A stretch of DNA of 64,000 nucleotides from Chitinophaga pendula (GTDB lineage Bacteria; Bacteroidota; Bacteroidia; Chitinophagales; Chitinophagaceae): contig NZ_CP077769.1 of the NCBI RefSeq assembly GCF_020386615.1, positions 3,348,001-3,412,000 of the forward strand, read 5' to 3'. This document shows, one piece after another, positions 37,546 through 64,000 of this stretch. The notes under the pieces were generated by a model. That model was not told the DNA's origin and ran no database searches. It saw only the letters and a program-made list of their open reading frames with translations. The translations under genes were made by a program, and so were the position numbers. Positions within the stretch are counted from its first letter, which is position 1. Each line of letters opens with the position of its first letter.

Positions 37546-38985
37546 ATGAAAACCCCATTTCAATTAAGCCTTGGAGCACTATTTGTGCTTACCATGCTGC
37601 TATCATCCTGTACCAAAAAGGAACTGCCGGAAACCCTTGTTAATGCTACCACTAAAGAACAGCAACGTACAGCAGGTGATGGCGAATATGACCTGTTAGG
37701 ATATGGTTATGATGCAACAGGCCAGTATGCTAACGCCGCTTCTGCAGGATTTGCAATTTTAGACATTCCCAGGATAAAAGTGGAAAAACCATCTCTTCTT
37801 TTGGTGGAGAATACCAGAACGCAGGAATATACAGAAGAATATGGAGAAGATGCGGCGCAGTATGCGGCCATGATTACGCGCAAGGTGGATGCGACTGCGC
37901 TCATAAGTTTATTCGCCGGTTCTGTCAGCAGTAGCTTCCAATTATCTGAGGTAAATGACGCTAAATATATTTATGGTAGTTACAATCTCACAATCAAGCA
38001 AAAGAGGCTTAGACTGAATGCTGTCCTTGATATCCTCATACAATACCTTACACCTGATTTCAAGGCAGCCATACAATCATCTACACCCGATCAACTGGTC
38101 AGGACATATGGTACACATTTGCTGGCTGATATTTACACAGGAGCCAAACTGGAAATTGCCTATCAAGCGGAGACACATAATACTGATCGCCGCACAGCAT
38201 CCAGGTCTGGCATTAAAGCAGGTGTTAAAGACGTATTCGGTCTTGATATCAATAATGACGTAGATCGGGCCAATGCCAGTCAAAACTTCGCCAAAAAACT
38301 CTCCTACTTTACAAGAGGAGGTGATCCGACACAAGGATTACGCGGAGAGGTCAATTTGGATAATACAACGCCCAAAATAACTATCAGCGGATGGCAAAAC
38401 ACTGCTACCACTGCCAATGCAGTATTAGTAGATTTCGGCCGTAATGGTTTAATCCCCATCTATAATCTGATCACAGATCCCGGGAAAAAGGCCTTGGTAA
38501 AAAGTTATGTTGATAAATATATTGAAGACAACCAGATAAAACTGTTTTACCGCCGAGTTCCTATTTATTCTTACTGCAGTAACAACTCTATTGCACATTA
38601 TTATACCCCCTTTAACGTTCCCGAAATAAGTGGTGACGGATATTCTTACAGGCGAATAGAGCGGATATTCTATGCATATGACAAGCAGGTACCTGGTAGT
38701 ATCCCGATATATGTTTACCTGCGGCAAGGAGCAAGGGAAGATTGGTATTACACGACGATCAATACTCCGTTCATTTCAGGACCTGGCTATTCGTACGCTA
38801 ATACAGGCGTACTTTTTTATGCAGCTGAAGGATCTCATATATCTGGCGCAATTCCTATTGCCGGTTATCTGAGTAGCGCCAGCACCCATTATCTGAATAC
38901 GATGAATGTACCACAGTTTACATGGCCGGGTTATGTCTTCAACAGAGAAGGCACTGCTTTTTATGCATTTGCAACAGAGAGATAA
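37546..38985 (+). CDS. MACPF-domain lipoprotein with C-terminal repeats (BSAP-like candidate toxin)
   Basis: 479 residues. Lipobox LLSSC (Cys22). Residues about 60-335 form a membrane attack complex/perforin domain: the signature YGTHLLADIYTGAKL at 188-202 matches the MACPF (Y/W)-G-(T/S)-H-(F/L) core, preceded by AAIQSSTPDQLVRTYG. Then come three repeats of about 45 residues (about 337-378, 386-426, 436-475), each opening P-I-Y/A-x-Y, with a central H-Y-Y/L-T and Gly-Tyr, and closing F-Y-A. This resembles Bacteroidales secreted antimicrobial proteins, which are MACPF lipoproteins. Killing activity is inferred. A terminator follows. Confidence 0.85.
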   Translation: MKTPFQLSLGALFVLTMLLSSCTKKELPETLVNATTKEQQRTAGDGEYDLLGYGYDATGQYANAASAGFAILDIPRIKVEKPSLLLVENTRTQEYTEEYGEDAAQYAAMITRKVDATALISLFAGSVSSSFQLSEVNDAKYIYGSYNLTIKQKRLRLNAVLDILIQYLTPDFKAAIQSSTPDQLVRTYGTHLLADIYTGAKLEIAYQAETHNTDRRTASRSGIKAGVKDVFGLDINNDVDRANASQNFAKKLSYFTRGGDPTQGLRGEVNLDNTTPKITISGWQNTATTANAVLVDFGRNGLIPIYNLITDPGKKALVKSYVDKYIEDNQIKLFYRRVPIYSYCSNNSIAHYYTPFNVPEISGDGYSYRRIERIFYAYDKQVPGSIPIYVYLRQGAREDWYYTTINTPFISGPGYSYANTGVLFYAAEGSHISGAIPIAGYLSSASTHYLNTMNVPQFTWPGYVFNREGTAFYAFATER

Positions 38986-49789: not shown

Positions 49790-50482
49790 TTATCTTGTCA
49801 ATTGATCAATTCCAGAAAGGATTGCATCCAGCGGCCTGTTGCCGACCATTATCACACCTCGTCCGTGGGCATTTGTAATCACCAGGGATGGAAAACGGCG
49901 TATATTCTTTACGATTATTTCTTCCAGATCTTTCTTGAAATTGGCGATCGTTACTTGTCCTGACAAATCATTCAGAAATCTTTCCGTATTTAAAATGTCT
50001 TTCATTTGCATTGCTATATTCACAAGTACCTCTTTCCTAGCGATATTCAGTCCATCTATCATCAGCGTGTGACGCACTTCTTTTAAGTAACGTGCGGCTA
50101 TCTGCTCTGACTGTAACGCTGCGGCTTTTACTGCTAAACAGGCTGGATATGAAGAGGCTGGGGGATCATCAAACCAGATATGGCTATTGATCTGCTGGCC
50201 GGTCAGATGAGCAGCCTGCATAAAAACAGCTCCCATTTGTATTGGTTTACTTACGTCGTTGACGTTGTCATAAAAATCTTCCCACGATGGAATAAGGCCG
50301 CCCATACAATACCGAAAGGTTGCCTGCTCAGCCAGCATCGTCTGCAGAGCCTCCCATACCGGCTCAAATACCCAACTCCAGCAGCACAAAGGATCTGTAT
50401 AGTATACGATACCGAGTTTCCCTTCTACTACCGGAGGGGTATTCTGAATTTGATTATCTACCTTTTCAGTTTTGTTAGTCAT
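49790..50482 (-). CDS. DsbA-family thioredoxin-like protein (SpxH/FrnE-like)
   Basis: 230 residues, no signal peptide, cytosolic. Thioredoxin-like with an inserted helical domain (DsbA family). The N-terminal motif YYTDPLCCWSWVFEPVWE occupies the active-site position: C33-C34-W-S36, so the usual second redox Cys is a Ser. Close relatives have DPLCxWxW and include SpxH/YjbH-type adaptors. It lies 20 bp after the manganese catalase gene on the same strand, suggesting oxidative-stress function. Confidence 0.85.
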   Translation of the reverse strand: MTNKTEKVDNQIQNTPPVVEGKLGIVYYTDPLCCWSWVFEPVWEALQTMLAEQATFRYCMGGLIPSWEDFYDNVNDVSKPIQMGAVFMQAAHLTGQQINSHIWFDDPPASSYPACLAVKAAALQSEQIAARYLKEVRHTLMIDGLNIARKEVLVNIAMQMKDILNTERFLNDLSGQVTIANFKKDLEEIIVKNIRRFPSLVITNAHGRGVIMVGNRPLDAILSGIDQLTR

Positions 50483-50501
50483 TCGTTTATCGATTGGTTA
50501 C

Positions 50502-51461
50502 TTATTTCATATTTTTACTTGCATCTGCATTTCCGCTCCATTGCTGAGGGCCCGGAGGTGTTGCCAACCTGACCTCTTCGCTTTTTATCTGACTCATCTC
50601 TTTATCAAGTCTGGCGTTTGTGTTAATGCTTCTGTCCGTTCCATTTACCTGTTGATCAAGAAGTCCGTTTGTTTGTAAAATATGACTGACAGGGTCATCA
50701 ATATATTGCCAGGTTTCTCCTAATTGAGTACTGATGCCCTCATTCCAGGGTCCGCGTACAGTGGAGCCACTAGACATATTGAAATAAAGATTACTATACC
50801 TGGGATCACCTTGCAATACGCCCGGTGGAAAATCAGGCTGAATTGTTTGTAAAGCAGCTTCAAACATCTGATAATGTGCTATCTCTCTTGTCATCAAAAA
50901 TTGTAAAGTTGACTTTACATCGGGATCATTTGTGAATTGCAATAAATATTCGTAGGTGATCTTGGCTCTGGATTCCGCGGCGATATCTGAGCGGAGATCT
51001 ACCGTCAAATCTCCATTTGCATCTCCGTTAATGTAGGCGGCCGTCCAAGGTACTCCCTCCGAATTTGTTAACGCGGGTCCCCCTCCCGTTGAAACTTTAA
51101 ATTGCGGGCTCATTATCGCCTGGTGGATAAAATCCTCCTTTGCTGCCTTACCATTAAGTAAATGCATGATCTCTGAGTTTTCAGCAGCATTTTTAAGATC
51201 TCCGTTAATCCCCTGTAACAACATCTGTATAGTTGCTCCTACTATTTCAAGATGACTGAATTCTTCGGTAGCAATATCCATCAGCATATCATATTTGTCC
51301 GGATATGGGTTTCTTGCGCTGAAAGCTTGCATGAAGTACCTCATGGCAGCCGCCAGCTCTCCGTTGGCCCCACCAAATTGTTCCAATAAAAGGCTGGCAA
51401 ATGCCGGATCGGTCTTACTGACTCTGGCATTGAACTGTAATTCTTTTACATGATAAAACAT
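50502..51461 (-). CDS. Manganese catalase family protein
   Basis: 319 residues, ferritin-like di-manganese catalase that dismutates hydrogen peroxide. Metal ligands lie in LLLEQFGGANGELAAAMRYF (Glu), ATEEFSHLEIVG (Glu, His) and REIAHYQMFEAAL (Glu, His). N-terminus MFYHVKELQF is typical. It precedes the DsbA-like gene in a two-gene unit. Confidence 0.95.
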   Translation of the reverse strand: MFYHVKELQFNARVSKTDPAFASLLLEQFGGANGELAAAMRYFMQAFSARNPYPDKYDMLMDIATEEFSHLEIVGATIQMLLQGINGDLKNAAENSEIMHLLNGKAAKEDFIHQAIMSPQFKVSTGGGPALTNSEGVPWTAAYINGDANGDLTVDLRSDIAAESRAKITYEYLLQFTNDPDVKSTLQFLMTREIAHYQMFEAALQTIQPDFPPGVLQGDPRYSNLYFNMSSGSTVRGPWNEGISTQLGETWQYIDDPVSHILQTNGLLDQQVNGTDRSINTNARLDKEMSQIKSEEVRLATPPGPQQWSGNADASKNMK

Positions 51462-51686
51462 AAATAAAATTTTAGGTGAATGACTGTTTTACTGGAGTTA
51501 TACACCAGATGCCAAAGTCCGTGCCGCCAACCCGCTGTAATTGCTGATATACAAGGGGTCGCCAGTAAATTGGGGTATTCTTTCCCTAGAAGTGTGTAAA
51601 GTCTTACGCTGTACTTCCCACATTTGGATTCTTATCCCTACGTAACAGAATGGCTTCTTTTTTGGGAGACCGCATTAAAAAGAATT

Positions 51687-52259
51687 ATGAAACAAACATA
51701 CCTTTTGGTACTTGCGATACTGTCATGCTATGCTTGTAACCGACACAAACATTCCCATAGTGAAATACAGAGAGATAGCGCAAAATCTATGAAAGAGCAT
51801 CTTGACCATATCAGCACTGCTACGGTCGCGTTTATTACAGACGCGGCTGTTATTACGGAAGAAGAGATTAATACCGGTAAAGCTGCGATAAAAAAGGCCA
51901 GGAACTTCCGAACGAAACAATACGCTAAAAAAGCGGTAGAAGACCATACCAACTTCTACAATGAGTTACAGTCACTTGCTAGTCAAACGGGTGTAACGCT
52001 TCCTGCTCCTAATACTCATAAAGGACTGGAGACCTTAAATACCGATACGGATTTTGATAAAGCATATATTAAACAAAGTATTAGTAATCACAGAAAGCTC
52101 CTTGAAAGAATAAATATTGCTTCCGCTTCGGACGAAGACAGCGTTAGCACCTTATCTATGCGGGCTTTACCTGTAATGGAAACATGCCTCTCAGATGCAA
52201 ATATTGTATTACAGGATTTCAGGAAACAGATGAACAATAGAGATATTTCACACAATTAA
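51687..52259 (+). CDS. DUF4142 lipoprotein
   Basis: 190 residues from the ATG at 51687 (MKQTYLLVLAILSCYAC, lipobox CYAC); the frame is open from 51624. DUF4142 is a ferritin-like all-helical periplasmic domain (AVITEEEINTGKAAIKKARN, EDHTNFYNELQSLA, DFDKAYIKQSISNHRKLLER). Homologues occur in stress-related clusters. It lies 47 bp before the DUF892 gene in the same direction and is divergent from the manganese catalase. Confidence 0.87.
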   Translation: MKQTYLLVLAILSCYACNRHKHSHSEIQRDSAKSMKEHLDHISTATVAFITDAAVITEEEINTGKAAIKKARNFRTKQYAKKAVEDHTNFYNELQSLASQTGVTLPAPNTHKGLETLNTDTDFDKAYIKQSISNHRKLLERINIASASDEDSVSTLSMRALPVMETCLSDANIVLQDFRKQMNNRDISHN

Positions 52260-52306
52260 TCGTTATCAAGCATTCATAACATTATTTATCACTTAAATAA
52301 GTCATT

Positions 52307-52831
52307 ATGCAGACAGTAACAGACACATCGGCCAATTCCAAGCTGGAAGTATTTTTTATAACAATGTTACAAGAAATTTACTGGTCAGAACAAAACCTGA
52401 TAAACGTACTATCAACCATGACAATATCGGCTACTCATCCTGAGCTGATACAAGCTTTTGATCTGCATAAGCGCCAGACAGAGGAACATGTCCGTATTGT
52501 GGAGCGGGTGTTTAATATGCTGGACAGAGTACCAGAAGCTTTGCCATCTGCTGGATTGCAGGGATTATTTGATGAGGGTTGGCAGGTGATTGATGAAACA
52601 GAAGCTGGCACATCTCAAAGGGATGTCGCACTGATCATAGCTGCCCAGAAAGTAGAACATTATGAAATAGCGTGTTATGGCAGCCTGGTTACCATCGCTG
52701 CTACGCTGGGGTTGACGAAGGTTGTTGATGAGCTGAGAGTAATATTGACAGAAGAAAAAGAAACAGATGCTACCCTAACGATCATTGCCGAAAGTAAGAT
52801 CAACGTACAAGCCAGCGAAGAAAAAGTATAA
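52307..52831 (+). CDS. DUF892 (YciE-type) ferritin-like protein
   Basis: 174 residues. KLEVFFITMLQEIYWSEQNL and AAQKVEHYEIACYGSLV form the metal-binding helices of the DUF892/YciE family, four-helix proteins linked to stress and osmotic responses. It follows the DUF4142 gene by 47 bp and probably shares its transcript. Confidence 0.92.
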   Translation: MQTVTDTSANSKLEVFFITMLQEIYWSEQNLINVLSTMTISATHPELIQAFDLHKRQTEEHVRIVERVFNMLDRVPEALPSAGLQGLFDEGWQVIDETEAGTSQRDVALIIAAQKVEHYEIACYGSLVTIAATLGLTKVVDELRVILTEEKETDATLTIIAESKINVQASEEKV

Positions 52832-53442: not shown

Positions 53443-55683
53443 TTATTGGATACGTATCTCATCGCAGCACAAAGCCGGCTTCTTACCTCCTACCAGCCTC
53501 CATATCGGCAGTGTTGGCGGACATTGGGCGGTAACACGGATATATCTGGCAGCAGAGGAACCAGTGGCAAAAGTATAATGGTTGATCTGTACGGAATAAT
53601 CTTCATCAGGGAGTGGAATCTCCTTCTGTGCTACTTTCGTAAAGTGTTGTCCATCTGCAGACGTCTCTATCAGAATCGATAATGGATTAAAAATATAATG
53701 CCTGGCATCCTGTAAAAAATTCATTTCGATCTGGGTCGTTGTTTTTGTACTGCCCAGATCGATTGTTGCGATCATATCCTTACCGTAGGTAAACAGCCAG
53801 TTATAGCTAAAGTCTTTGCCTCCGGTCAGGCCATCTGTCAGTGTACGTTCCTTTTTGGGGGTATACTCTGGTGTAAAAGGATTCACGAGTGCAACAGATG
53901 CTCCCAAAGCGATTCCGGGTGACCATTTGCGAGCCAGCCACTCCTGCCATTCCGCTTCATATGCGTCTGGCGAAAGTCCTCCTTCTGACAATTCGGTTAC
54001 GCCATTTTTCTTACACTGTGCTACAAACTGTTTTACCCGTTGCTTCCACCCAGGCTGTACCATCCCATCGGGTTGCAGGTAACCATATTTTTCTGTACCA
54101 TAGAAACGGGATTGCTGCAGTATCACGTATTCCAGTGAGAGCCGAAGTGTATTGACCCTTTGCTGCAGCATATCCTTATCATTGACGCTAGCTGCGGCTT
54201 TATCCAGCAATGCGCTGTATTGTTCGATCAGGGCAGGAGAAAGATATTGACCGGCGCTGAAAAAGGGATTGCCATATATATCCAGCGAGCTATGTGTACT
54301 TTTAACAGCATTGGTGAGTGCCTCGATATATTGACCAACATAAGTAGCGGCGGCTCCGTAATAGCCTTTCAAAAAGTTTTCCTTTTCTTGCGCAATATCG
54401 GCATCTGGTTTCCACAACAGGCACGATTGCGCATAACTATTCCAGGCGGCCATATCTCCCAGGGTTTCTCCACTACCTTGCGAAAACACGCCTTTAACAC
54501 GATGAGCAGAGAAATACTGAAGATTAGGTTGGAGGTTATTATAATCGGGGAAAGGACTTATATAATTGGTAAACTGAGTGGTATAATCCCAGATAAATAT
54601 ATTTTCCGTTACCTTTTCCCAATCTATCAGGTTTTTACGAAAACCTGCAGCTGAAGGTTCTTGTTCTAATGGTTGATGGCGAAAGGCATCTATAGTACTA
54701 AGCATGATATAGACATTCGCTGCAGGTCTTGTTTTCAGCGGCGCCTTTGCCGTATACCCATAAGCCAATGTAGTAAACCGTTGCTCGGGGAATTGTTTCG
54801 CCACACGATTAACAAATCGTATCAGCGAGCCCTGAGGCCCGCCCTCTTCTTTATCCACCTGCCGGCAAAGATCACAAGTGCAGGCACCGTTCCCATCTTC
54901 TGGTGCCACAGACCAATACATAGCATCAGGATTCCCGGCAATAGCTTTTTTAAACCAGGCTGTGACTAAATTATACACGTTTTCGTTGCTTAGGCAAAGC
55001 TGTTGGGCCTGTCGTTTACCGTTGACCAAGGAATAGTATTCCGGATGTCCTTTGAAATAATCTTTGGGAGGCACCAGTTTAAAAAAGGAATGTCCCCATA
55101 GCCCCCACAAATCTTCAAAACGATGCAATTTATGCCAGGACAGGTATTCTGCGTCAAAGGAAGCTGGGTAGTAGGTTTCCCTATATACAAAAGCAGGCTC
55201 CTGCAGGTCGGCAATATTATCTTTCAGTCGAATGTTTTTAGAGGCGGGAACGGTGGCTGGCCCCTGATCATCTTTGCGGCAGCCCAGGTATGTTTGTAAC
55301 AGGTGGTATATACCATATACAACACCTTGTCCACTTCCACCTCTGACATACAGGGCATTGTTGTGAGTAGCTACGTAATAGCCCTCTGCTTTGATGTTTG
55401 CCGGCCCGGATTTATGTTCAGTGTTACCCACAAATATTGCGGGGATTTCTTTTTTGTACTGGTCTTCTGTAAGTAACGTCAACTTTGCGCCAGATATCCG
55501 TTGTATATAGTCCCGGAGGATGCTGGCAGCCTTACTTTCTGCTTTAGTAGGTTCGGCGGGTGTAACGATCACGTATAGACTACGCCCCTGCTCTACCAGT
55601 AAGATATCTGCACTGTTCTGCCCACAGGCAGTTAATAAGTAGGCGGTAATTGAAAACAGGAAGCTAAACATAAATCTCCGCAT
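53443..55683 (-). CDS. DUF4838 lipoprotein with discoidin-like C-terminus
   Basis: 746 residues. Lipobox LLTAC (Cys20). N-terminal GH20-type accessory domain (about 30-150; YVIVTPAEPTKAESKAASIL, VYGIYHLLQTYLGCR), then DUF4838 (TIM-barrel-like; FKGHPEYYSLVNGKRQ, YWSVAPEDGNGACTCDLCRQ) and a C-terminal F5/8 type C-like carbohydrate-binding domain (TIDLGSTKTTTQIEMNFLQD, ARYIRVTAQ). Probably a glycan-processing or binding protein on the cell surface; catalytic activity unproven. It starts 10 bp after the YaiO-like gene and is the last gene of the exopolysaccharide operon. Confidence 0.88.
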   Translation of the reverse strand: MRRFMFSFLFSITAYLLTACGQNSADILLVEQGRSLYVIVTPAEPTKAESKAASILRDYIQRISGAKLTLLTEDQYKKEIPAIFVGNTEHKSGPANIKAEGYYVATHNNALYVRGGSGQGVVYGIYHLLQTYLGCRKDDQGPATVPASKNIRLKDNIADLQEPAFVYRETYYPASFDAEYLSWHKLHRFEDLWGLWGHSFFKLVPPKDYFKGHPEYYSLVNGKRQAQQLCLSNENVYNLVTAWFKKAIAGNPDAMYWSVAPEDGNGACTCDLCRQVDKEEGGPQGSLIRFVNRVAKQFPEQRFTTLAYGYTAKAPLKTRPAANVYIMLSTIDAFRHQPLEQEPSAAGFRKNLIDWEKVTENIFIWDYTTQFTNYISPFPDYNNLQPNLQYFSAHRVKGVFSQGSGETLGDMAAWNSYAQSCLLWKPDADIAQEKENFLKGYYGAAATYVGQYIEALTNAVKSTHSSLDIYGNPFFSAGQYLSPALIEQYSALLDKAAASVNDKDMLQQRVNTLRLSLEYVILQQSRFYGTEKYGYLQPDGMVQPGWKQRVKQFVAQCKKNGVTELSEGGLSPDAYEAEWQEWLARKWSPGIALGASVALVNPFTPEYTPKKERTLTDGLTGGKDFSYNWLFTYGKDMIATIDLGSTKTTTQIEMNFLQDARHYIFNPLSILIETSADGQHFTKVAQKEIPLPDEDYSVQINHYTFATGSSAARYIRVTAQCPPTLPIWRLVGGKKPALCCDEIRIQ

Positions 55684-55693
55684 TGTAAGTCTG

Positions 55694-58555
55694 TTAAAAC
55701 CTTCGCTGAAGCGTTATATAAATATCGTATTGATTTTGATACCCTGTATTGGTGATCTTCTGATTAATCCAGGTACCGAATAACCCGATGGTCGTACGAT
55801 AATGCAATACTTTCTGATAACCTGCGCCGATGCTGTGCGTTAGCAAACCGGATAGATTTGGAAAGTTGATCAGGCGGCTGCGATCATCCGGCGAGGTACC
55901 CAAACCGGCTATTAGTTGCAGGTAATCCTGTCGCCTATTCATGTAATAACGGGTAGTCAGGTTAAAGGCCGTATAAAAATCTGACGCCTCGCTAATGGCA
56001 AATCCTCTAAGATTAACCCAGAAATCGCCGAAAGGTTTTGCCACCGACAATACTCCAGAGAAATTACTGGTGCTGTCCAGGTTAAGGTAACGACCACCCA
56101 GCTCTACTTCAAATTCTTTACCAAAAGTTTTAAAAATGGAATAGGCAGCTCTTAGCTGCGGAAAGACTAAGTTATTGGAATATGCCACCATTCCGTACGA
56201 ATACAGTTTGCTATTATGTGTATAATATAATTCAGCGAGCCCCTGCAGCCCATTACCAGTCTTCCTTCCGGCATAGTTCAGCTGAAAAGCATAAGAGCCA
56301 CGTTTCATAAAGCGGCGATATTCTACCGTTGCAATATTGTATTTATCCGAATTATAGTCATAACTCGAATTGAGGAAGTATAATCCGAATTGGTTTTTCA
56401 ATGTTTTGCTTTGCAAGTAGTCCCGGTAATCCGCATTCGCAGCTGTATGCTGCAACGTTACTACTGAATCTGCCGTTAATGCGGCTGTCACATAGTCTTT
56501 TTTGTTTTCCAGGGTGATCGCACGTTTTAGGAGGAAGGTCTCATTACCTGGGTAGTATTTGATTCCCTGGCTGATGTATATAAGCGCACTATCATATTGT
56601 TGCCGGCCATTGAGGATATTAATACTGTATAAAAGTGCCAGGGAGTCTTTATTATTCAAGGTTAATACCTTACTAAAAACCTCCAAAGCGCTGTCTGGTT
56701 GCTGGTTACGCTGGAAGCTTTGCCCTTGGCTCATCAGACTGGTGATATAGGCCTGCTTATACTTCAGGGTATAAGGATACTTGTTCATGAGGGCAGCGCT
56801 GATGGCAGCCGACTCATCATACCGATGCAGGTCTTGCAACACAGCAGCTTTCTTTAACAGAAATTCGCGATTATCCGGGTAGTAACCAATTGCCTTATCG
56901 GCAAAATACAAGGCGCTATCGGCGTTTCCGGTCGCACTTTGCATGTTGATCATGTATTCCAGTGCTTCCTGATTGGATGGTGCTACTGCCAGGACTTGTT
57001 CAAATTGCTGTTTTGCCAGGTCATATTCCTCTGCTTTCATGAATATACGTCCCTGCGTCAGACGCATATCTACCAGATTATTGTTATATCTGTCATCACG
57101 CGGATAACGGGAGCTCAGTTGAGCAGCTATTTCCGCGGCCTCTTCATACCTGCCTGCATCTGACAAAACGCCTGCTTTTTTCATCAGGAAATAGGCATTG
57201 TCCGGATACTGGGTTAATGCCTGATCCAATACCTGTAGTGCTGCTGTGGCATTTTTCTGAGAAATATAGGTATTGGCCAGCAGGTTAAGGATTATAGTAT
57301 CTGCTGGGCTTGCTTCCAGTGCGGTTGTGAAGGACGACAATGCCAGGTCATATTGTTGTTGGGCCAGATATTCTCTTCCTGTAGCAGTTTCCAGCGTCAC
57401 AAGCCTCTCTTGTAATGCGGGGCTAGGTGTACGCCGATACAATAATTCAGCGATCGCAGCTGCACTGCCATATTTATGATCGCCTTCCAGGACATCCATT
57501 TTCAGCGTCAGCAGGCGGATATCGTTAGGGTTATTTTTCAGCCCACGATTGATCCAAGCCAGTGCTTCGCGGTATGCTCCGCGGGTCATGCTATAGCCGA
57601 TCAGTTTGTCGAGGGCTTCTCTATTTCCTGGTTCCCGTTCAAGCACACTGGCATACAGAGAATAAGGATCATTATTGGTGTAGTAAGCGGCGGCCTCCAT
57701 TCTGAGTGATGTCTCTAGGGAACGGGCTTTTGCGTTGGTGGGGTATCTACGTATTATCTCCTGTAATGTAATAATGGCTTCTGCATAGGCATGCATTTCC
57801 TGCAGGATACCTAATTTTCTCATTAACAAATCATAGTTACCGGGGGAAGCAGCTAATGCTTCGTTGACTACATCCAGCGCGGCACCATAATTACTGCCCT
57901 TCAATGACAAACCCAGACTTGCTTCCCTGGCGTCTTGATTCCGGGGATCAGCGAGTAATACGCGGTCGAAGTTCTGGCGTGCCATGTTATTATTTCCGAG
58001 CTGCTGATAATATTTTCCACTCAGCAGGTAATGTTCTATGTATGCATTTCGGACGGTAGTATCCTGCGGGTACTTACCCATTAGAGACTCAGCCAATTCA
58101 TGGCCCTGATATATTTTATGTTGCAGGTTGAGTATTCCCAGCTTTTTCAACATGAATTCCTGACTGCCTGGAAACTCGCTCAGTGCCTCATCTACATAAC
58201 ATGCTGCCTCTTCCAATTTGCTGGTGGTCAACTCTACATTAATAGCATAGTAATAAGCATCGCGATAACGGGGATTTTTGGTCAATACTTTTCTGATATA
58301 TTGCCTGGACAGATCGTATTGTTTGGTGAGCATATATAAGCGGGCCAGCAGCAGTTCCTGATCAATAAAATCTGGTTGTTCTTTCAGTGCCTGCCTGGAC
58401 AAGGCAATCGCTTTTTCGTAATGCTGTTGTTTGGTTTCCTGTAATGCCTGTTCATACAGGGCCTCAGCGTTATTTTTCTGTTTAAAAATCTGCGCTTGTA
58501 CCTGGGAGATCAGGCATATCAACAGTCCGGATAACAGATATTTTAATACAGTCAT
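55694..58555 (-). CDS. TPR-repeat protein with C-terminal YaiO-type outer-membrane barrel
   Basis: 953 residues. Signal peptide (MTVLKYLLSGLLICLISQVQ). Residues about 25-700 are tetratricopeptide repeats arranged in a longer period of about 110 residues (hallmark: YYP-x-N-xx-FLLK-, then RY-x-E-AA, then VL-x-x-P-x-N-xx-AL). The last 240 residues are a YaiO-family beta barrel (YEYxRFM, SYAFQLNYAGRKTGNGLQGL, ... LQRRF). The layout resembles exporters of polysaccharides such as PgaA or BcsC. It is placed between GT2 synthases and a surface lipoprotein. Confidence 0.88.
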   Translation of the reverse strand: MTVLKYLLSGLLICLISQVQAQIFKQKNNAEALYEQALQETKQQHYEKAIALSRQALKEQPDFIDQELLLARLYMLTKQYDLSRQYIRKVLTKNPRYRDAYYYAINVELTTSKLEEAACYVDEALSEFPGSQEFMLKKLGILNLQHKIYQGHELAESLMGKYPQDTTVRNAYIEHYLLSGKYYQQLGNNNMARQNFDRVLLADPRNQDAREASLGLSLKGSNYGAALDVVNEALAASPGNYDLLMRKLGILQEMHAYAEAIITLQEIIRRYPTNAKARSLETSLRMEAAAYYTNNDPYSLYASVLEREPGNREALDKLIGYSMTRGAYREALAWINRGLKNNPNDIRLLTLKMDVLEGDHKYGSAAAIAELLYRRTPSPALQERLVTLETATGREYLAQQQYDLALSSFTTALEASPADTIILNLLANTYISQKNATAALQVLDQALTQYPDNAYFLMKKAGVLSDAGRYEEAAEIAAQLSSRYPRDDRYNNNLVDMRLTQGRIFMKAEEYDLAKQQFEQVLAVAPSNQEALEYMINMQSATGNADSALYFADKAIGYYPDNREFLLKKAAVLQDLHRYDESAAISAALMNKYPYTLKYKQAYITSLMSQGQSFQRNQQPDSALEVFSKVLTLNNKDSLALLYSINILNGRQQYDSALIYISQGIKYYPGNETFLLKRAITLENKKDYVTAALTADSVVTLQHTAANADYRDYLQSKTLKNQFGLYFLNSSYDYNSDKYNIATVEYRRFMKRGSYAFQLNYAGRKTGNGLQGLAELYYTHNSKLYSYGMVAYSNNLVFPQLRAAYSIFKTFGKEFEVELGGRYLNLDSTSNFSGVLSVAKPFGDFWVNLRGFAISEASDFYTAFNLTTRYYMNRRQDYLQLIAGLGTSPDDRSRLINFPNLSGLLTHSIGAGYQKVLHYRTTIGLFGTWINQKITNTGYQNQYDIYITLQRRF

Positions 58556-58579
58556 TAGTTTAGTCTTAATTTAAGAGTA

Positions 58580-60058
58580 TTATTTTTTCTTACCGAATCC
58601 CTGTCTTTGCATGTTACCCCAGGAGGTTTTCTTTCCGATGAGGAAAAACCAATAGCCGCGCAAGGCAAAAAATACGATCAGCGGATGATACAGCAATGGT
58701 TCTAAAAATGCCATCAAGGCTAATCCTATTACTTCGCGCCAGGTTTTATAATAGCCATAAGTCAGCTGGTCCCAGCATATTGCCAAGGTAGTGATCATGA
58801 CGGAGTAGAGGTAGACAAAGATGAGGAGGATGACAGCATAAAGCCAGTTCACCTGGTTTGTGCAGATGAGGTATATATAGTATAATATGCCGACAAATTC
58901 GATGATAGGTGCCAAAAATTCAAAGAAGAGGTTGTATGGCAGTACGATCAGGCCCAGCTTCTTATACCGTGGATTGAAGATGATCTTTCTGTGTAATGTC
59001 ATTATTTCGGCCAGACCGCGCCCCCATCGGGTGCGTTGCCGGCTAAATATTTTCATGTTAGGAGGGCCTTCCGTCCAACATTGTGTAGTAGGAATGTATC
59101 TTATCGCATATTTCATTTTATTGTCCAGCATGTAGGCACACATGCGGGTTACAATATCCATATCCTCCGCAAAAGAAGAATGGTCATATCCACCTGCTTT
59201 GATAGCTACTTCTTTGTCGAACAGACCAAGTCCACCAGATACATTAGGTACACTATTCATCTTACTCCAGCCCATTTTGCCCAGTACGTATGCCCTTATG
59301 TACTCCATTTCCTGGAAGCGAGGCAATAGTTTTTCGGGAGGTCGTACCCTCGTGATTACGCCTTCATCTACTTCAGTGGAATTGGCTAGTCTCAGGGTAG
59401 CGCCAGTGGCGATTACCTGTCGACTATCTTCCACGACATGTACATAACCACATTGGGGGCAGGGCTCTCCTACTTCTTTGGTTTCTTTATGTTCCTCATC
59501 CATGAACGGTTTAATCATTCTAAGGAGGGTATCTTTTTCTATGATACAGTCTACATCTGTACAAAGGAAGTAATCGAAGGAGGCGGCGTTAATACCTGCA
59601 TTGGAAGCATCTGCCTTACTTTTTCCATTTATTTTGTCAATGACCAACAGCTTATCATAAGCGATATTAGTGGATTTATACAGTTGTTTTACTGGTTTAG
59701 TTACAATGCGTTCATTATAGGCAAAATCAATGGGAACGAGTTCAAATTCCCTGATCAGCTTTTCAAGTGTGTCGTCGGTGCTCCCATCATTGACAATGAT
59801 CACTTCAAAACGAGTATAGTTAAGTGTAAGCAGGGATCTTACGTTCATGATGATCGTCACGCCTTCGTTAAAAGCAGGTGCTATTACGGATATACCTGGT
59901 GTCAGCGGGGAGTTAAGCAGGTGGTCATAGTTAGTAAAACTGGCTTTTTTGCGGAATTTGATGATACCACGAAAAGACAGATAAGCTAATATTGCGTACA
60001 TTATTAACAGTACGCAACCATATATAAATACGCCACCTTCAAATAAAGTTCTGATCAT
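58580..60058 (-). CDS. Processive GT2 membrane glycosyltransferase, paralog B
   Basis: 492 residues. N-terminal membrane segment(s), GT-A domain with D-D-D-QxxRW: VNDGSTDD (91-93), CTDVDC (168-171), AED (298-300), SRQRTRWGRGL (341-345 QRTRW), then about three to four C-terminal membrane helices. This is the layout of PgaC/IcaA/BcsA/hyaluronan synthases that polymerise and extrude beta-linked glycans. It differs from paralog A by an insertion of about 20 residues at 187-210 with CPQCGY at 200-205. It ends WGNMQRQGFGKKK like paralog A. It begins 16 bp after paralog A stops. Confidence 0.92.
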   Translation of the reverse strand: MIRTLFEGGVFIYGCVLLIMYAILAYLSFRGIIKFRKKASFTNYDHLLNSPLTPGISVIAPAFNEGVTIIMNVRSLLTLNYTRFEVIIVNDGSTDDTLEKLIREFELVPIDFAYNERIVTKPVKQLYKSTNIAYDKLLVIDKINGKSKADASNAGINAASFDYFLCTDVDCIIEKDTLLRMIKPFMDEEHKETKEVGEPCPQCGYVHVVEDSRQVIATGATLRLANSTEVDEGVITRVRPPEKLLPRFQEMEYIRAYVLGKMGWSKMNSVPNVSGGLGLFDKEVAIKAGGYDHSSFAEDMDIVTRMCAYMLDNKMKYAIRYIPTTQCWTEGPPNMKIFSRQRTRWGRGLAEIMTLHRKIIFNPRYKKLGLIVLPYNLFFEFLAPIIEFVGILYYIYLICTNQVNWLYAVILLIFVYLYSVMITTLAICWDQLTYGYYKTWREVIGLALMAFLEPLLYHPLIVFFALRGYWFFLIGKKTSWGNMQRQGFGKKK

Positions 60059-60073
60059 AGCAGCTGCTTTTCT

Positions 60074-61504
60074 TTATTTTTTCTTTCCAAATCCTTGTCT
60101 TTGCATATTGCCCCAGGTACTTTTCTTACCTGTAAGGAAATAATAATATCCACGAAGCGAAAAGAATACGATGAGGGGATGATATAGCAGAAACTCCAGG
60201 AAGGGCGTCAGGCAGAGATAGGCCACCTCCTTCCAGGTCTTGTAGTATCGGAAGCTGAGTTGGTCCCATAGTATTGAGATGGTGGTGATCATTACTGCAT
60301 AAGTATATACGAAAAGCAGTAATAATAGTGCATAAGGCCAGTTGATATTTCCTGTGAGTGCTAATATTATATATATAATGATACCAGATGCCTCAATAAT
60401 GGGCGCAAGTAATTCGAAGAAAAAGTTGAAAGGAAACACCACCAATCCCATTCTACCATAATTCGGATTCATGAACATACCAAAGTGGGAGGTAATCAGC
60501 TGTGCAAGCCCTCTGGCCCAGCGGGTACGCTGCCGGCTGAATATTTTTAGTGTAGCCGGAGCTTCGGTCCAGCAGAGTGTTCTCGGTATATATCTTACGG
60601 CGTAATCGATGCGGTTTTCGTGTGCATAACGACACATGCGGGTGAGCAGCTCCATATCTTCTCCGAAAGAGCTATGGTCATAGCCACCGCAGCGGATCGC
60701 CACTTCTTTATCAAACAATCCTAGCCCGCCGGATACGTTCGGAACACAGTTGATGTAGCTCCAACCCATTTTCCCTAATACAAACGAGCGGATGTACTCT
60801 ACCTCCTGGAACCTGGGTAATAGCTGAGATGGTGGGCGCATGCGAGTCATTACCCCTTCATCGAATTCGGAGGAGTTAGCAATACGAAGGGTGGCACCGG
60901 TGGCGATAACCCTTTTCCCCCGCTCCTGCATAACTGGTACTATTAGTTCCAGTAAGGTATCTTTATGCAGGATACAGTCTACGTCGGTACACACAAAATA
61001 ATCGAAAGAAGCTACATTAATCCCTGCATTTACTGCATCTGCTTTACTTTTCCCGTTGACTTTGTCTATGACTAACAATGATGAATAGGCAGGGTCGGTA
61101 GATTTATAGATCTTCCGGATGGGCTGCGACATAATCTTGGTGGTGTAGGCGAAGTCGACCACTACCAGTTTGAACTCTGCAATGAGTTGTTCCATGGTAT
61201 TATCGGTGCTACCATCATTGATCAATACGATCTCATATCTTGGGTAATTCAGTGTCAGGAGGGATCGTACGTTGGATATGATGGTAAGTCCCTCATTAAA
61301 GGCAGGTGCCAGAATGGTGATCCCGGGAGCCAGTGGCGAGCTGGCAAGTATATCCAGTTGATATTTACGATTATTATTAATATAAAAGCGTATAGCCAGC
61401 ATAGATAATATAGCCAGCAAGGCATAAACGGCCAACAGCACGATGCCGTAAACAAACAGGACATTTTCATATATCCGGCCCAGTGTTAGAAAAAAGCCCT
61501 CCAT
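60074..61504 (-). CDS. Processive GT2 membrane glycosyltransferase, paralog A
   Basis: 476 residues from the ATG at 61504 (MEGFFLTLGRIYENV); a longer upstream reading to 61603 lies inside the HEAT gene. Motifs INDGSTDN (97-99), CTDVDC (173-177), GED (281-283) and SRQRTRWARGL (325-329). C-terminal membrane helices follow. High similarity to paralog B along the whole length. Its start overlaps the HEAT-gene stop in the form TAATG, so translation is coupled. Confidence 0.92.
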   Translation of the reverse strand: MEGFFLTLGRIYENVLFVYGIVLLAVYALLAILSMLAIRFYINNNRKYQLDILASSPLAPGITILAPAFNEGLTIISNVRSLLTLNYPRYEIVLINDGSTDNTMEQLIAEFKLVVVDFAYTTKIMSQPIRKIYKSTDPAYSSLLVIDKVNGKSKADAVNAGINVASFDYFVCTDVDCILHKDTLLELIVPVMQERGKRVIATGATLRIANSSEFDEGVMTRMRPPSQLLPRFQEVEYIRSFVLGKMGWSYINCVPNVSGGLGLFDKEVAIRCGGYDHSSFGEDMELLTRMCRYAHENRIDYAVRYIPRTLCWTEAPATLKIFSRQRTRWARGLAQLITSHFGMFMNPNYGRMGLVVFPFNFFFELLAPIIEASGIIIYIILALTGNINWPYALLLLLFVYTYAVMITTISILWDQLSFRYYKTWKEVAYLCLTPFLEFLLYHPLIVFFSLRGYYYFLTGKKSTWGNMQRQGFGKKK

Positions 61505-62658
61505 TAGTATTTTATTAATGGGTTCATGCAATGCTTCAGGATACGTAAGCTTTCCGGGTCTGCGGTATCGAGTAACTCCTGTATTACCTGGCTGGCAATC
61601 CATTCATTTTTTACCAGGGATTTGGCGGCATTCTTCCGGAGATCAAAATTGGTAGAATGCAGGAATTCCTGTTTGAGGAAATCGATATGCCGGCCGCTGC
61701 TAATACGACCTACTGCTTTCAGGATGGCTATCTGGCAATGGAGAGGCTGACTGCTGTACATTGATACCAGTCTGTCTTCCACATCTGGTACCCTTAGTTT
61801 ACCCAGGCACCTGATAGCATCTGTCCGGAGGTAGTGGTCTTTGGTATCCAGCAATTTGATAACGGCTGATACAGCAGGTAGCTGATTATAGTGTGTGATG
61901 AGGAGTAGGCAGAATGATACTACGCTTTTGTTATTAGAATAGGTTACCCATCGGGCGAAGTTAGGGATGGCGATATCTTCGGTGGTGGTGATAATCCGGA
62001 AGAGCTCGACCTGGTCCCACATCAGCAAGGGGTCAGTGACGACATCAAAGAATTTGAAGGGTTCGTTTTTGCTTAGTTTTATATAGGCATGGCGGGCAGC
62101 GGCTCTGAGTTCACGGTTACGGCTATTGGTCAGCGGTAGTAGGGTTACATCTGCTACGGGGATTTCCATTTCCATGAATTCTGTCAGTGCCCGCACTTTT
62201 CTGGCCCAATGCCTTGACTTCATTTGTTTGAGGGTATCCTTGCTCAGGTCGAGCTGGATATAGAGATTACGCAGGAGATGCCCGGCATTGCCTCTGACGT
62301 TACGCCGGAAGTGTATGATACGGTCGGTGACGGCCTGCCTGGCCCATTTTTTATCCAAAGGTAGCTCCTGGAAAGCTTCCAGATCCATCTGAATGTGATC
62401 GGCCGGTTCTCCTGCCGCTATTGCCGGATTGGCCAGCACCTGTTCTACTATCAGGTTATCGATCTCAGGTAGCAGACCAGCCAGTCGCTTGTTGCGTTTA
62501 TAGCCTCTGAAACGGCTACGCAATATAGATAGATATGCCAGCAAGGTGATTATTACCGCGACTACAATAAATACTATTGCCAGTTTTATTGCCAACGGAG
62601 CACCTTGAAATACATTAAAAATAGGTTCCAGGAAGGATGGTACTTGGATTTCGAACAT
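61504..62658 (-). CDS. Membrane-anchored HEAT-repeat protein
   Basis: 384 residues. One hydrophobic helix near residues 22-50 (LAIKLAIVFIVVAVIITLLA), a short basic loop, then about 300 residues of HEAT-like helical pairs (VTDRIIHFRRNVRGNAGHLL, LRAAARHAYIKL, YLRTDAIRCLGKLRVPDVED, LRKNAAKSLVKNEWIASQVI). A scaffold is suggested. It sits between the regulator and the GT2 synthases, coupled to paralog A (TAATG) and 3 bp from the regulator. Confidence 0.85.
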   Translation of the reverse strand: MFEIQVPSFLEPIFNVFQGAPLAIKLAIVFIVVAVIITLLAYLSILRSRFRGYKRNKRLAGLLPEIDNLIVEQVLANPAIAAGEPADHIQMDLEAFQELPLDKKWARQAVTDRIIHFRRNVRGNAGHLLRNLYIQLDLSKDTLKQMKSRHWARKVRALTEFMEMEIPVADVTLLPLTNSRNRELRAAARHAYIKLSKNEPFKFFDVVTDPLLMWDQVELFRIITTTEDIAIPNFARWVTYSNNKSVVSFCLLLITHYNQLPAVSAVIKLLDTKDHYLRTDAIRCLGKLRVPDVEDRLVSMYSSQPLHCQIAILKAVGRISSGRHIDFLKQEFLHSTNFDLRKNAAKSLVKNEWIASQVIQELLDTADPESLRILKHCMNPLIKY

Positions 62659-62661
62659 CGA

Positions 62662-63033
62662 CTATTTATTCTTCATTAACAATCGCTTTACCCGAATGAG
62701 TAGTTCAGCAGGTATGATTGGTTTTTTCAGGAAGTCATCTGCGCCCAGTTTAAATCCTTCCATTACCATATCTTCATTACCTGCATTGGATACAATAATA
62801 ACCGGAATAGGGTTCGGCTGGCTTTTTACCTTACTCAATATTTCAAATCCATTGGCGTAAGGCATCATAATATCTGTAATGATCAGGTCATACCCATAAG
62901 CAGAGGCTTCCAGTTTTTCGAATGCTTCTTTCCCATTGGATACATGATCCAGCTGATATTCTGAAGAGGAGAGAATCCTGGCTACAATTTTTGGCATTAT
63001 CTCATCGTCTTCGACTAGCAAAATTTTACTCAT
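62662..63033 (-). CDS. Single-domain response regulator
   Basis: 123 residues from ATG 63033 (MSKILLVEDDEIMPKIVARI); an upstream reading would be shorter in evidence. CheY-like: acidic pair EDD, phosphoacceptor Asp in DLIITDIMMPY, Lys in DDFLKKPIIP. No output domain, so it acts by protein contact, for example through the HEAT protein. It is the first gene of the six-gene operon and diverges from the CHASE3 kinase, its probable partner. Confidence 0.92.
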   Translation of the reverse strand: MSKILLVEDDEIMPKIVARILSSSEYQLDHVSNGKEAFEKLEASAYGYDLIITDIMMPYANGFEILSKVKSQPNPIPVIIVSNAGNEDMVMEGFKLGADDFLKKPIIPAELLIRVKRLLMKNK

Positions 63034-63313
63034 TTTGGCAAGCGTTTTTATGATGTAGTCACCGGTAGAACGGCGATACAATCACTTCTATTAATTGGTT
63101 TCGGACACAGTTAGCGGTTTTTTCAAAGATATTGGTCAATTTGATCCTTGATGCTTAGTTTATGTGTTATTCGGTATATACTACAAAATTCAATAAAAAG
63201 TTTTTAACTATGCGTCAAAGTTATGTTACTTTTTATAAGTATTATTCTGTTGTACAAAGATATGCATATGAATGCATTTAGGTATTTTTATCCTGTTTTA
63301 AGTCATTAAATAT
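63034..63313. promoter_or_regulatory. Divergent control region
   Basis: 280 bases between the response-regulator operon and the CHASE3 kinase. On the minus strand TATCTTTG occurs at 63255-63262 and TAACTTTG at 63216-63223, each a match to the -7 consensus, but without a good -33 box. Confidence 0.4.
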
Positions 63314-64000
63314 ATGAAGCTCTCTTTAGTGAACAGGCTTTACCTGGGTTTTGCGTTAGTGATATCGCTGATCCTGGTGGGTGGTTATCTGACCTGGCAG
63401 ACATTTAACACTCAGACGGAGGAAGCCGGGTGGGTACAGCATACTTACCGGGTATTAAATAATTCGGAAAGGGTACAAAGGTTACTTTTCGATATGGAGG
63501 CGTCCAGGCGGGGCTTTAGGAGTACTTTTAACAAGCGATTCCTGGAGCCGTATGAGACCGCTCTACCGAAGGTAGCGCCGGCGATCAATGATCTTCGCAC
63601 CATGGTATCAGACAATCCTGTCCAGTTCCGAAATACGGATTCACTGGAGCGGGCGGTCAACAGCCTGCTGAGTTTCTGGAATGAGCTGGATCACTTGACT
63701 ACCCAGCAACGATTTGATCAGAATGTAGCTATTACGGAACAGGAGACCTTATTGATGGACAAGGTCAGGGCACGGATCAATACTGTTAATTTAACGGAAC
63801 GACATCTCCTGGCTAAACGGGAGGAGTTAAAAAACAGTTCCTTTACCAAAGCAATCAAAACACTATTGCTGAATAACCTTTTCATCCTGTTGGTCGGTTT
63901 TATATTAATGCGGGTAACCTATGCGGAATTCAAGCGGCGGTTAAAAGTACAGAAGGCCCTTAACAGTAAGTTACATGAGGTAGTAGAGTTGAATAAGGCA
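63314..64000 (+). CDS. CHASE3-domain sensor protein, probably histidine kinase (partial, runs off the window)
   Basis: 229 codons visible from the ATG at 63314, open to the window edge. First membrane helix about 8-28 (LYLGFALVISLILVGGYL), extracytoplasmic CHASE3 region (about 30-185; RLLFDMEASRRGFRSTFN, then coiled coil), second helix about 190-205 (LLLNNLFILLVGFILM), followed by a coiled-coil linker (KALNSKLHEVVEL). Usually followed by a histidine kinase core, which is outside this window. Divergent from the response regulator. Confidence 0.85.
   Translation, partial: MKLSLVNRLYLGFALVISLILVGGYLTWQTFNTQTEEAGWVQHTYRVLNNSERVQRLLFDMEASRRGFRSTFNKRFLEPYETALPKVAPAINDLRTMVSDNPVQFRNTDSLERAVNSLLSFWNELDHLTTQQRFDQNVAITEQETLLMDKVRARINTVNLTERHLLAKREELKNSSFTKAIKTLLLNNLFILLVGFILMRVTYAEFKRRLKVQKALNSKLHEVVELNKA

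Follow-up and report, generated by a model that had tools for sequence, protein, structure and literature searches.

A conserved exopolysaccharide-type gene module of Bacteroidota with a receiver and a HEAT-repeat protein where c-di-GMP control would be expected

Synthase-dependent secretion systems such as Bcs, Alg and Pga combine a membrane processive-type family 2 glycosyltransferase (GT2) with an outer-membrane exporter built of tetratricopeptide repeats (TPRs) and a barrel, and their operons also encode a hydrolase (BcsZ, AlgL, PgaB). According to PMC12802240, post-translational control of synthase-dependent polysaccharides frequently involves cyclic di-GMP (c-di-GMP), and EpsW of Myxococcus xanthus is a lone receiver that activates polysaccharide synthesis post-translationally. 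Here we analysed a stretch of 64,000 nucleotides (the window) of Chitinophaga pendula, whose genome is a single 7.66-Mb contig, and in it an operon of six genes. The operon resembles Bcs, Alg and Pga in its processive-type GT2, its TPR-plus-barrel protein and an operon-borne protein of glycosidase fold (DUF4838), but differs from them in carrying a single-domain receiver (REC), a HEAT-repeat protein (HEAT) and two synthases (GTA and GTB), and neither GGDEF nor PilZ was found in the 40 scanned genomes that carry the module, its own included. The module is conserved, and is best read as a variant of synthase-dependent secretion in which REC and HEAT occupy the place usually held by control through c-di-GMP.

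The operon lies on the minus strand and reads, in order of transcription, REC, HEAT, GTA, GTB, TPR-YaiO and DUF4838. REC (62662 to 63033, 123 aa) is a CheY-like response regulator with PF00072 as its sole domain (E 1.1e-27); its start is likelier the ATG at 63033, the TTG-started open reading frame (ORF) extending to 63081. HEAT (61504 to 62658) is a membrane-anchored repeat protein by hydropathy and by its match to PF13646 (HEAT_2, E 1.2e-13). The two paralogous GT2s are GTA (60074 to 61504, 476 aa, PF00535/PF13641), for which a start at 61504 is likelier and the first-ATG ORF would run 100 bp into HEAT, and GTB (58580 to 60058, 492 aa, PF00535 E 3.6e-18). They are followed by TPR-YaiO (55694 to 58555, 953 aa, PF19413 E 3.4e-35) and by the DUF4838 lipoprotein (53443 to 55683, 746 aa, E 1.5e-91), whose lipobox was read from the sequence. 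Intergenic distances are 3 bp (REC-HEAT), -1 bp (HEAT-GTA, a 1-bp overlap in TAATG), 15 bp (GTA-GTB), 24 bp (GTB-YaiO) and 10 bp (YaiO-DUF4838). Separated from REC by 280 bp, a hybrid histidine kinase, a candidate sensor of which the window holds only the start (63314 to 64000, plus strand, CHASE3 E 3.3e-25), diverges from the operon. ORFs, measured gaps and Pfam matches (DUF4838, YaiO barrel with TPRs, two GT2s, HEAT_2, Response_reg and CHASE3) thereby agree with a preliminary description of six close-packed genes with gaps of 25 bp or less, one TAATG overlap, these domains and a divergent CHASE3 sensor.

Conservation was determined in two sets of genomes. Eighteen distinct close loci were taken by a protein-to-DNA scan with HEAT, so that the presence of HEAT there is by construction; 16 are from Chitinophaga, one is from a metagenome-assembled genome titled Flavihumibacter and one from Parapedobacter. 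REC-HEAT-GT-GT-YaiO is kept in the same order on one strand in all 18, DUF4838 comes next in 17 (missing in L008), and all but L018 have, upstream and in divergent orientation, a long REC-bearing protein, judged by its REC content (17 of 18). A HEAT search with the single protein gave five matches without taxonomy, and a HEAT profile found relatives in 43 of 395 Bacteroidota genomes. From its 49 matches the window's own was excluded and seven were not taken (second hits of G343, G021 and G245; G025, G316, G046 and G287), leaving 41 HEAT homologues in 40 stretches. This GT2 is the next gene on the strand in 40 of the 41 (the exception, L090, is a weak match), in 37 YaiO is at most three genes before or five genes after HEAT (in 29 on the same strand), and DUF4838 is nearby in nine. 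Of the 40 GT-linked modules, 35 have a lone REC. It lies upstream in the same orientation in 26 of them and in L071, comes downstream in that orientation in L065, L066, L072, L074 and L076, and is nearby on the opposite strand in L068, L085 and L086; direct tblastn located those of L065, L066 and L071. No REC was found in five modules, namely the second module of L064, which is cut by the stretch end, L053, with only 975 bp between module and contig start, L067, L078 and L087.

Because of these frequencies of GT2, YaiO and lone REC, the core module is REC-HEAT-GT2-YaiO, and the tandem GT2s and DUF4838 are lineage variants. The arrangement is beyond chance, since the same order recurs in every close locus and the core in distant Bacteroidota; the loss of gene order in relatives, which the preliminary description had named as a finding that would speak against it, was not seen. 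Its view of duplicated synthases as part of the machine has to be narrowed to a feature of the own family and Parapedobacter, as each module of the phylum set has one GT. One stretch (L064:7237-19501) carries two dissimilar modules next to each other, namely REC-HEAT-GT-(796 aa)-YaiO and HEAT-GT-YaiO-DUF4838.

The receiver is well preserved. In an alignment of 61 RECs (the window's and 60 encoded ahead of HEAT, in which L009 and L121, at least, are one and the same record), D9, D54 and S/T82 are each kept in 60 and K104 in all 61; D54 is presumably the phosphosite. REC of the window has an intact phosphoacceptor, and its gene is linked to the synthesis genes. By hydropathy, HEAT has one transmembrane segment near its N-terminus (about residues 22-40), and because basic residues come next, its solenoid is probably on the cytoplasmic side. 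A stretch with the consensus EPxKF...WxQ is conserved and is a candidate contact surface for REC and HEAT.

In the genome, the full ORF of the divergent kinase encodes 1130 aa with the order CHASE3-GAF-HisKA-HATPase-REC-REC (L002:3315-6707), and is followed by CheR, CheB and an ORF that reads as response-regulator-kinase-like, the whole sensor cluster spanning L002:3315-9228. Among the 26 modules with an upstream REC, 14 have a long REC-bearing protein directly upstream on the same strand. Six upstream neighbours were scanned with Pfam and comprise five hybrid kinases, one without Hpt (L054) and four with REC then Hpt (L055, L057, about 0.8 kb upstream, L058 and L071), and one REC-Hpt protein (L084). 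By their domain order, the kinase-REC-Hpt neighbours have the layout of a predicted phosphorelay, whose last receiver, without an output domain, adjoins HEAT. The two Hpt domains detected in the genome of the window are encoded away from the operon, so that the window's hybrid kinase may act directly or via a remote Hpt. Control by the CHASE3 kinase, as first described, may apply, given the divergent protein of close loci, but many distant relatives have another adjacent kinase or none, and we infer rather than observe that the CHASE3 kinase is the cognate one.

GTA and GTB are 62% identical, and both hold the D, DxD, ED and QxxRW motif set of membrane processive GT2s, as DGS, DVD, GEDME and QRTRW in GTA and DGS, DVD, AEDMD and QRTRW in GTB. 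Searching the Protein Data Bank with the GT by phmmer returned generic GT2 matches; PcManGT we take to be non-polymerising. The AlphaFold model of GTB (pLDDT 87.8) aligns with hyaluronan synthase, the cellulose synthases BcsA and CesA and chitin synthase, and its membrane domain superposes on these channel-type enzymes; GTB thus models like a channel-forming synthase, its processivity being presumed. In a tree of 59 GTs (from four of L003-L020, 15 of L051-L090 and each of L121-L140 that had a usable GT; fragments shorter than 400 aa, four in number, were excluded), GTA and GTB fall into clades A and B with ultrafast bootstrap (UFBoot) values of 89 and 99. A topology test of a common duplication origin of both gave p-AU 0.33, with 1000 replicates, too few according to the program. 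Tandem GT2s occur in 25 of the 79 same-family genomes with the GT, L125 being among the loci with both GTs present. A GTB-type enzyme stands alone in five (E <= 1e-80; some are draft assemblies), assigned in three by the tree to clade B and in two by best BLAST score.

GTB also carries a CPxCG-x2-H insert, modelled as a beta-hairpin at about residues 193-210 with a local confidence of about 59-67. The insert is found in GTB of all 18 close loci and in every full-length GTB adjoining a GTA in a further comparison, and is missing from GTA and from the 40 GTs of L051-L089. In the five GTB-only genomes CxxC is kept in two and lost in three, a hint, from few and related genomes, that the hairpin is linked to the presence of GTA. 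Other arrangements were observed as well: in L140:6163-9315, a module of the REC-YaiO-HEAT-GT type, the GT has been duplicated in tandem independently (the copies are 69% identical), and L127:4690-9266 and L133 have a third, divergent GT between GTA and GTB, with REDME in place of GEDME and, in L127, 39-45% identity to the flanking GTs.

TPR-YaiO has a hydrophobic, signal-like N-terminus, a long TPR array (TPR_19) and a C-terminal YaiO outer-membrane beta-barrel (TIGR04390, 78.2 bits against a cutoff of 32), and is the presumed exporter. The DUF4838 lipoprotein is modelled with a glycoside-hydrolase fold and a C-terminal F5/8-type domain; structure comparison of its model by VIA points to a GH115/GH84-like fold, and it is a presumed polymer-trimming or polymer-binding enzyme. 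The glycosidases to which it may be akin are those of GH115, GH84, GH20 and GH67. BT0459 we take to belong to GH20. The long TPR-YaiO nearly always occurs with DUF4838 (L051, L053, L067, L087 and the same-family loci; L008 is an exception), and where the partner is LtaS-like, YaiO is a short protein of about 400-500 aa. In C. pinensis YS-16 (L011:14132-19259) both the YaiO gene and the DUF4838 gene are broken into two ORFs, owing to sequencing error or as pseudogenes.

Taken together, we consider it fairly probable that these genes encode a synthase-dependent exopolysaccharide machine of Bacteroidota in which phosphorylated REC, acting via HEAT, replaces c-di-GMP control. In this machine the GT2s would build the polymer from a nucleotide-sugar and drive the growing chain across the inner membrane, TPR-YaiO would convey it through the periplasm and the outer membrane, and the DUF4838 lipoprotein would trim or bind the polymer, as BcsZ, PgaB and AlgL do in theirs. 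A hybrid kinase or a phosphorelay would phosphorylate the lone REC, which lacks a DNA-binding output, and phosphorylated REC would dock on the cytoplasmic HEAT solenoid and so activate or silence the synthase, a role that c-di-GMP plays in Bcs, Alg and Pga. The synthesis and export that had been proposed for this locus find support in the fold, the catalytic motifs, the order of the genes and their widespread synteny; the duplicated synthase is not core, and the CHASE3-kinase control is putative. The GGDEF and PilZ scans covered 40 of the 43 HEAT-matching genomes (the weak matches G046, G287 and G389 were left out), and the absence of both domains counts against c-di-GMP, a frequent but not universal regulator of such systems, as the regulator here. 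Of 198 genomes drawn from the phylum, 108 have GGDEF, but only two of these 108 belong to the class of the window's genome (which we take to be Bacteroidia, the family being Chitinophagaceae). Because GGDEF is so rare in that class, its absence tracks taxonomy and is not independent evidence for control by REC.

The same machine could also be present with REC serving nearby kinases as a phosphate sink or as an intermediate of their relay, making no contact with HEAT, which would then be a structural scaffold for the synthase. Single-domain response regulators can serve phosphorelays, and DifD is a sink in Myxococcus (PMC12802240); two further receivers in the window's hybrid kinase and the response-regulator-kinase-like ORF nearby are in line with such a role, as is the retention of HEAT-GT-YaiO in L053, L067, L078 and L087, where no REC was found. 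However, in 21 of the 26 modules REC lies -10 to +68 bp from HEAT though the upstream neighbour varies or is no kinase, and in L065, L066, L074 and L076 it comes last in the HEAT-GT-YaiO-DUF4838 operon, and is therefore tied to the machine, not to a kinase, so that we regard a mere sink or relay as unlikely. We give still less credence to a glycan that stays at the cell surface on a lipid or lipoprotein anchor, in the manner of a capsule or a teichoic acid, and is modified by the LtaS-like or DUF4838 partner, as the YaiO barrel in 37 of 41 clusters fits export of a chain, with which the modelled alignment of the membrane domain to channel-type synthases would also agree.

The synthase pair can be read in two ways. 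GTA may be redundant, both enzymes making the same polymer as a dosage duplication; the five GTB-only genomes, the independent pair of L140, by which duplication recurs, and the tandem pgaC duplications of a clade including Thauera sp. MZ1T (PMC7112194) point that way. Separate clades coexisting under at least 10 genus labels, differing motifs (GEDME vs AEDMD/GEDMD) and the Cys-bearing insert of GTB only argue, in turn, for distinct roles, and we hold redundancy to be somewhat doubtful. That one GT is a dead subunit is not favoured, DVD, ED and QRxRW being present in full-length copies of both types, though motifs are no proof of activity. A bolder combination, which we put forward as improbable, is that REC-HEAT is a c-di-GMP-independent switch across Bacteroidia, in which the receiver ending a phosphorelay docks on HEAT and allosterically gates the synthase, and that in the Chitinophaga family GTA and GTB form a heteromer, joined or metal-stapled via the CPxCG-x2-H hairpin, making a two-sugar polymer (uronate/N-acetylhexosamine-like) that is trimmed by DUF4838.

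Identity with the Pga/Ica and cellulose systems was rejected by curated models. For poly-N-acetylglucosamine (Pga/Ica), TIGR03937 scored 115.5 (GTB) and 125.2 (GTA) against a cutoff of 422.3 and, for PgaA, TIGR03939 scored 50.2 against 366.65; the deacetylase domain of Pga/Ica was found in none of the seven scanned window proteins. For cellulose, TIGR03030 (BcsA) gave 17.8 (GTB) and 31.9 (GTA) against 699.1, NF008520 (BcsC) gave 20.8 against 858, and the CelA score was far below its cutoff; the matches listed included no alginate model. E. coli yaiO/yaiP/yaiS shares a YaiO-family barrel and a GT2 with the operon, but YaiP reaches 29% over 121 aa only, the YaiO barrels gave no BLASTP match, the annotation of the E. 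coli stretch shows neither a TPR array nor HEAT or REC, and the putative deacetylase YaiS has no counterpart among the seven window proteins; BLASTP thus rules out YaiOPS as a close relative, and the distant parallel drawn in the preliminary description is apt.

With EpsW/EpsZ of M. xanthus the common trait is a single-domain response regulator tied to exopolysaccharide synthesis, but its target there, EpsZ, belongs to a Wzx/Wzy pathway and is a monotopic phosphoglycosyl transferase (PMC12802240), an enzyme not found among the seven scanned window proteins, HEAT and GT2s being present instead. The Thauera-clade pgaC clusters likewise have tandem-duplicated PgaC-like synthases, but are without detectable pgaA exporter, and PMC7112194 names no HEAT or YaiO (term counts of 0). 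The zetaproteobacterial sfz stalk cluster, with BcsB-like Sfz1, Sfz2 with an EpsE-like GT, and no YaiO or TPR term in the passages of PMC8250860, was rejected as a match. BcsG, a phosphoethanolamine transferase acting with cellulose synthase (PMC11470070), is a membrane transferase on a nascent polymer, and other lineages of the module carry a PF00884 protein there; this LtaS-like protein, often fused to the GT, is absent from the window operon, and by analogy with BcsG its decorating activity is a guess. Behind a hydrophobic stretch, GT2 is fused to the PF00884 domain in L065:5077-8859, L079:569-4003 and L084:5133-8621, a possible synthase-decorator fusion. No published description of the REC-HEAT-GT2-YaiO module was found in the open-licence PMC literature, among the matches listed, in keeping with the initial remark that the arrangement was not recognised as a named system.

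Elsewhere in the window, 37546-38985 encodes a MACPF/perforin-domain protein of 479 aa (a weak match, E 1e-6), and 49790-52831 holds a stress-type cluster of a thioredoxin-fold protein, a Mn catalase, DUF4142 and DUF892, which we take to be YciF-like.

In the 40 scanned genomes, which have no GGDEF or PilZ, the synthase and exporter are tightly linked to HEAT and mostly to a lone receiver. If the proposed role of REC and HEAT is true, it would explain how these bacteria switch their matrix without c-di-GMP, and the module would be a compact case for studying phosphorelay control of a membrane synthase. Moreover, the GTA/GTB pair would allow the building of a copolymer by tandem synthases to be tested.

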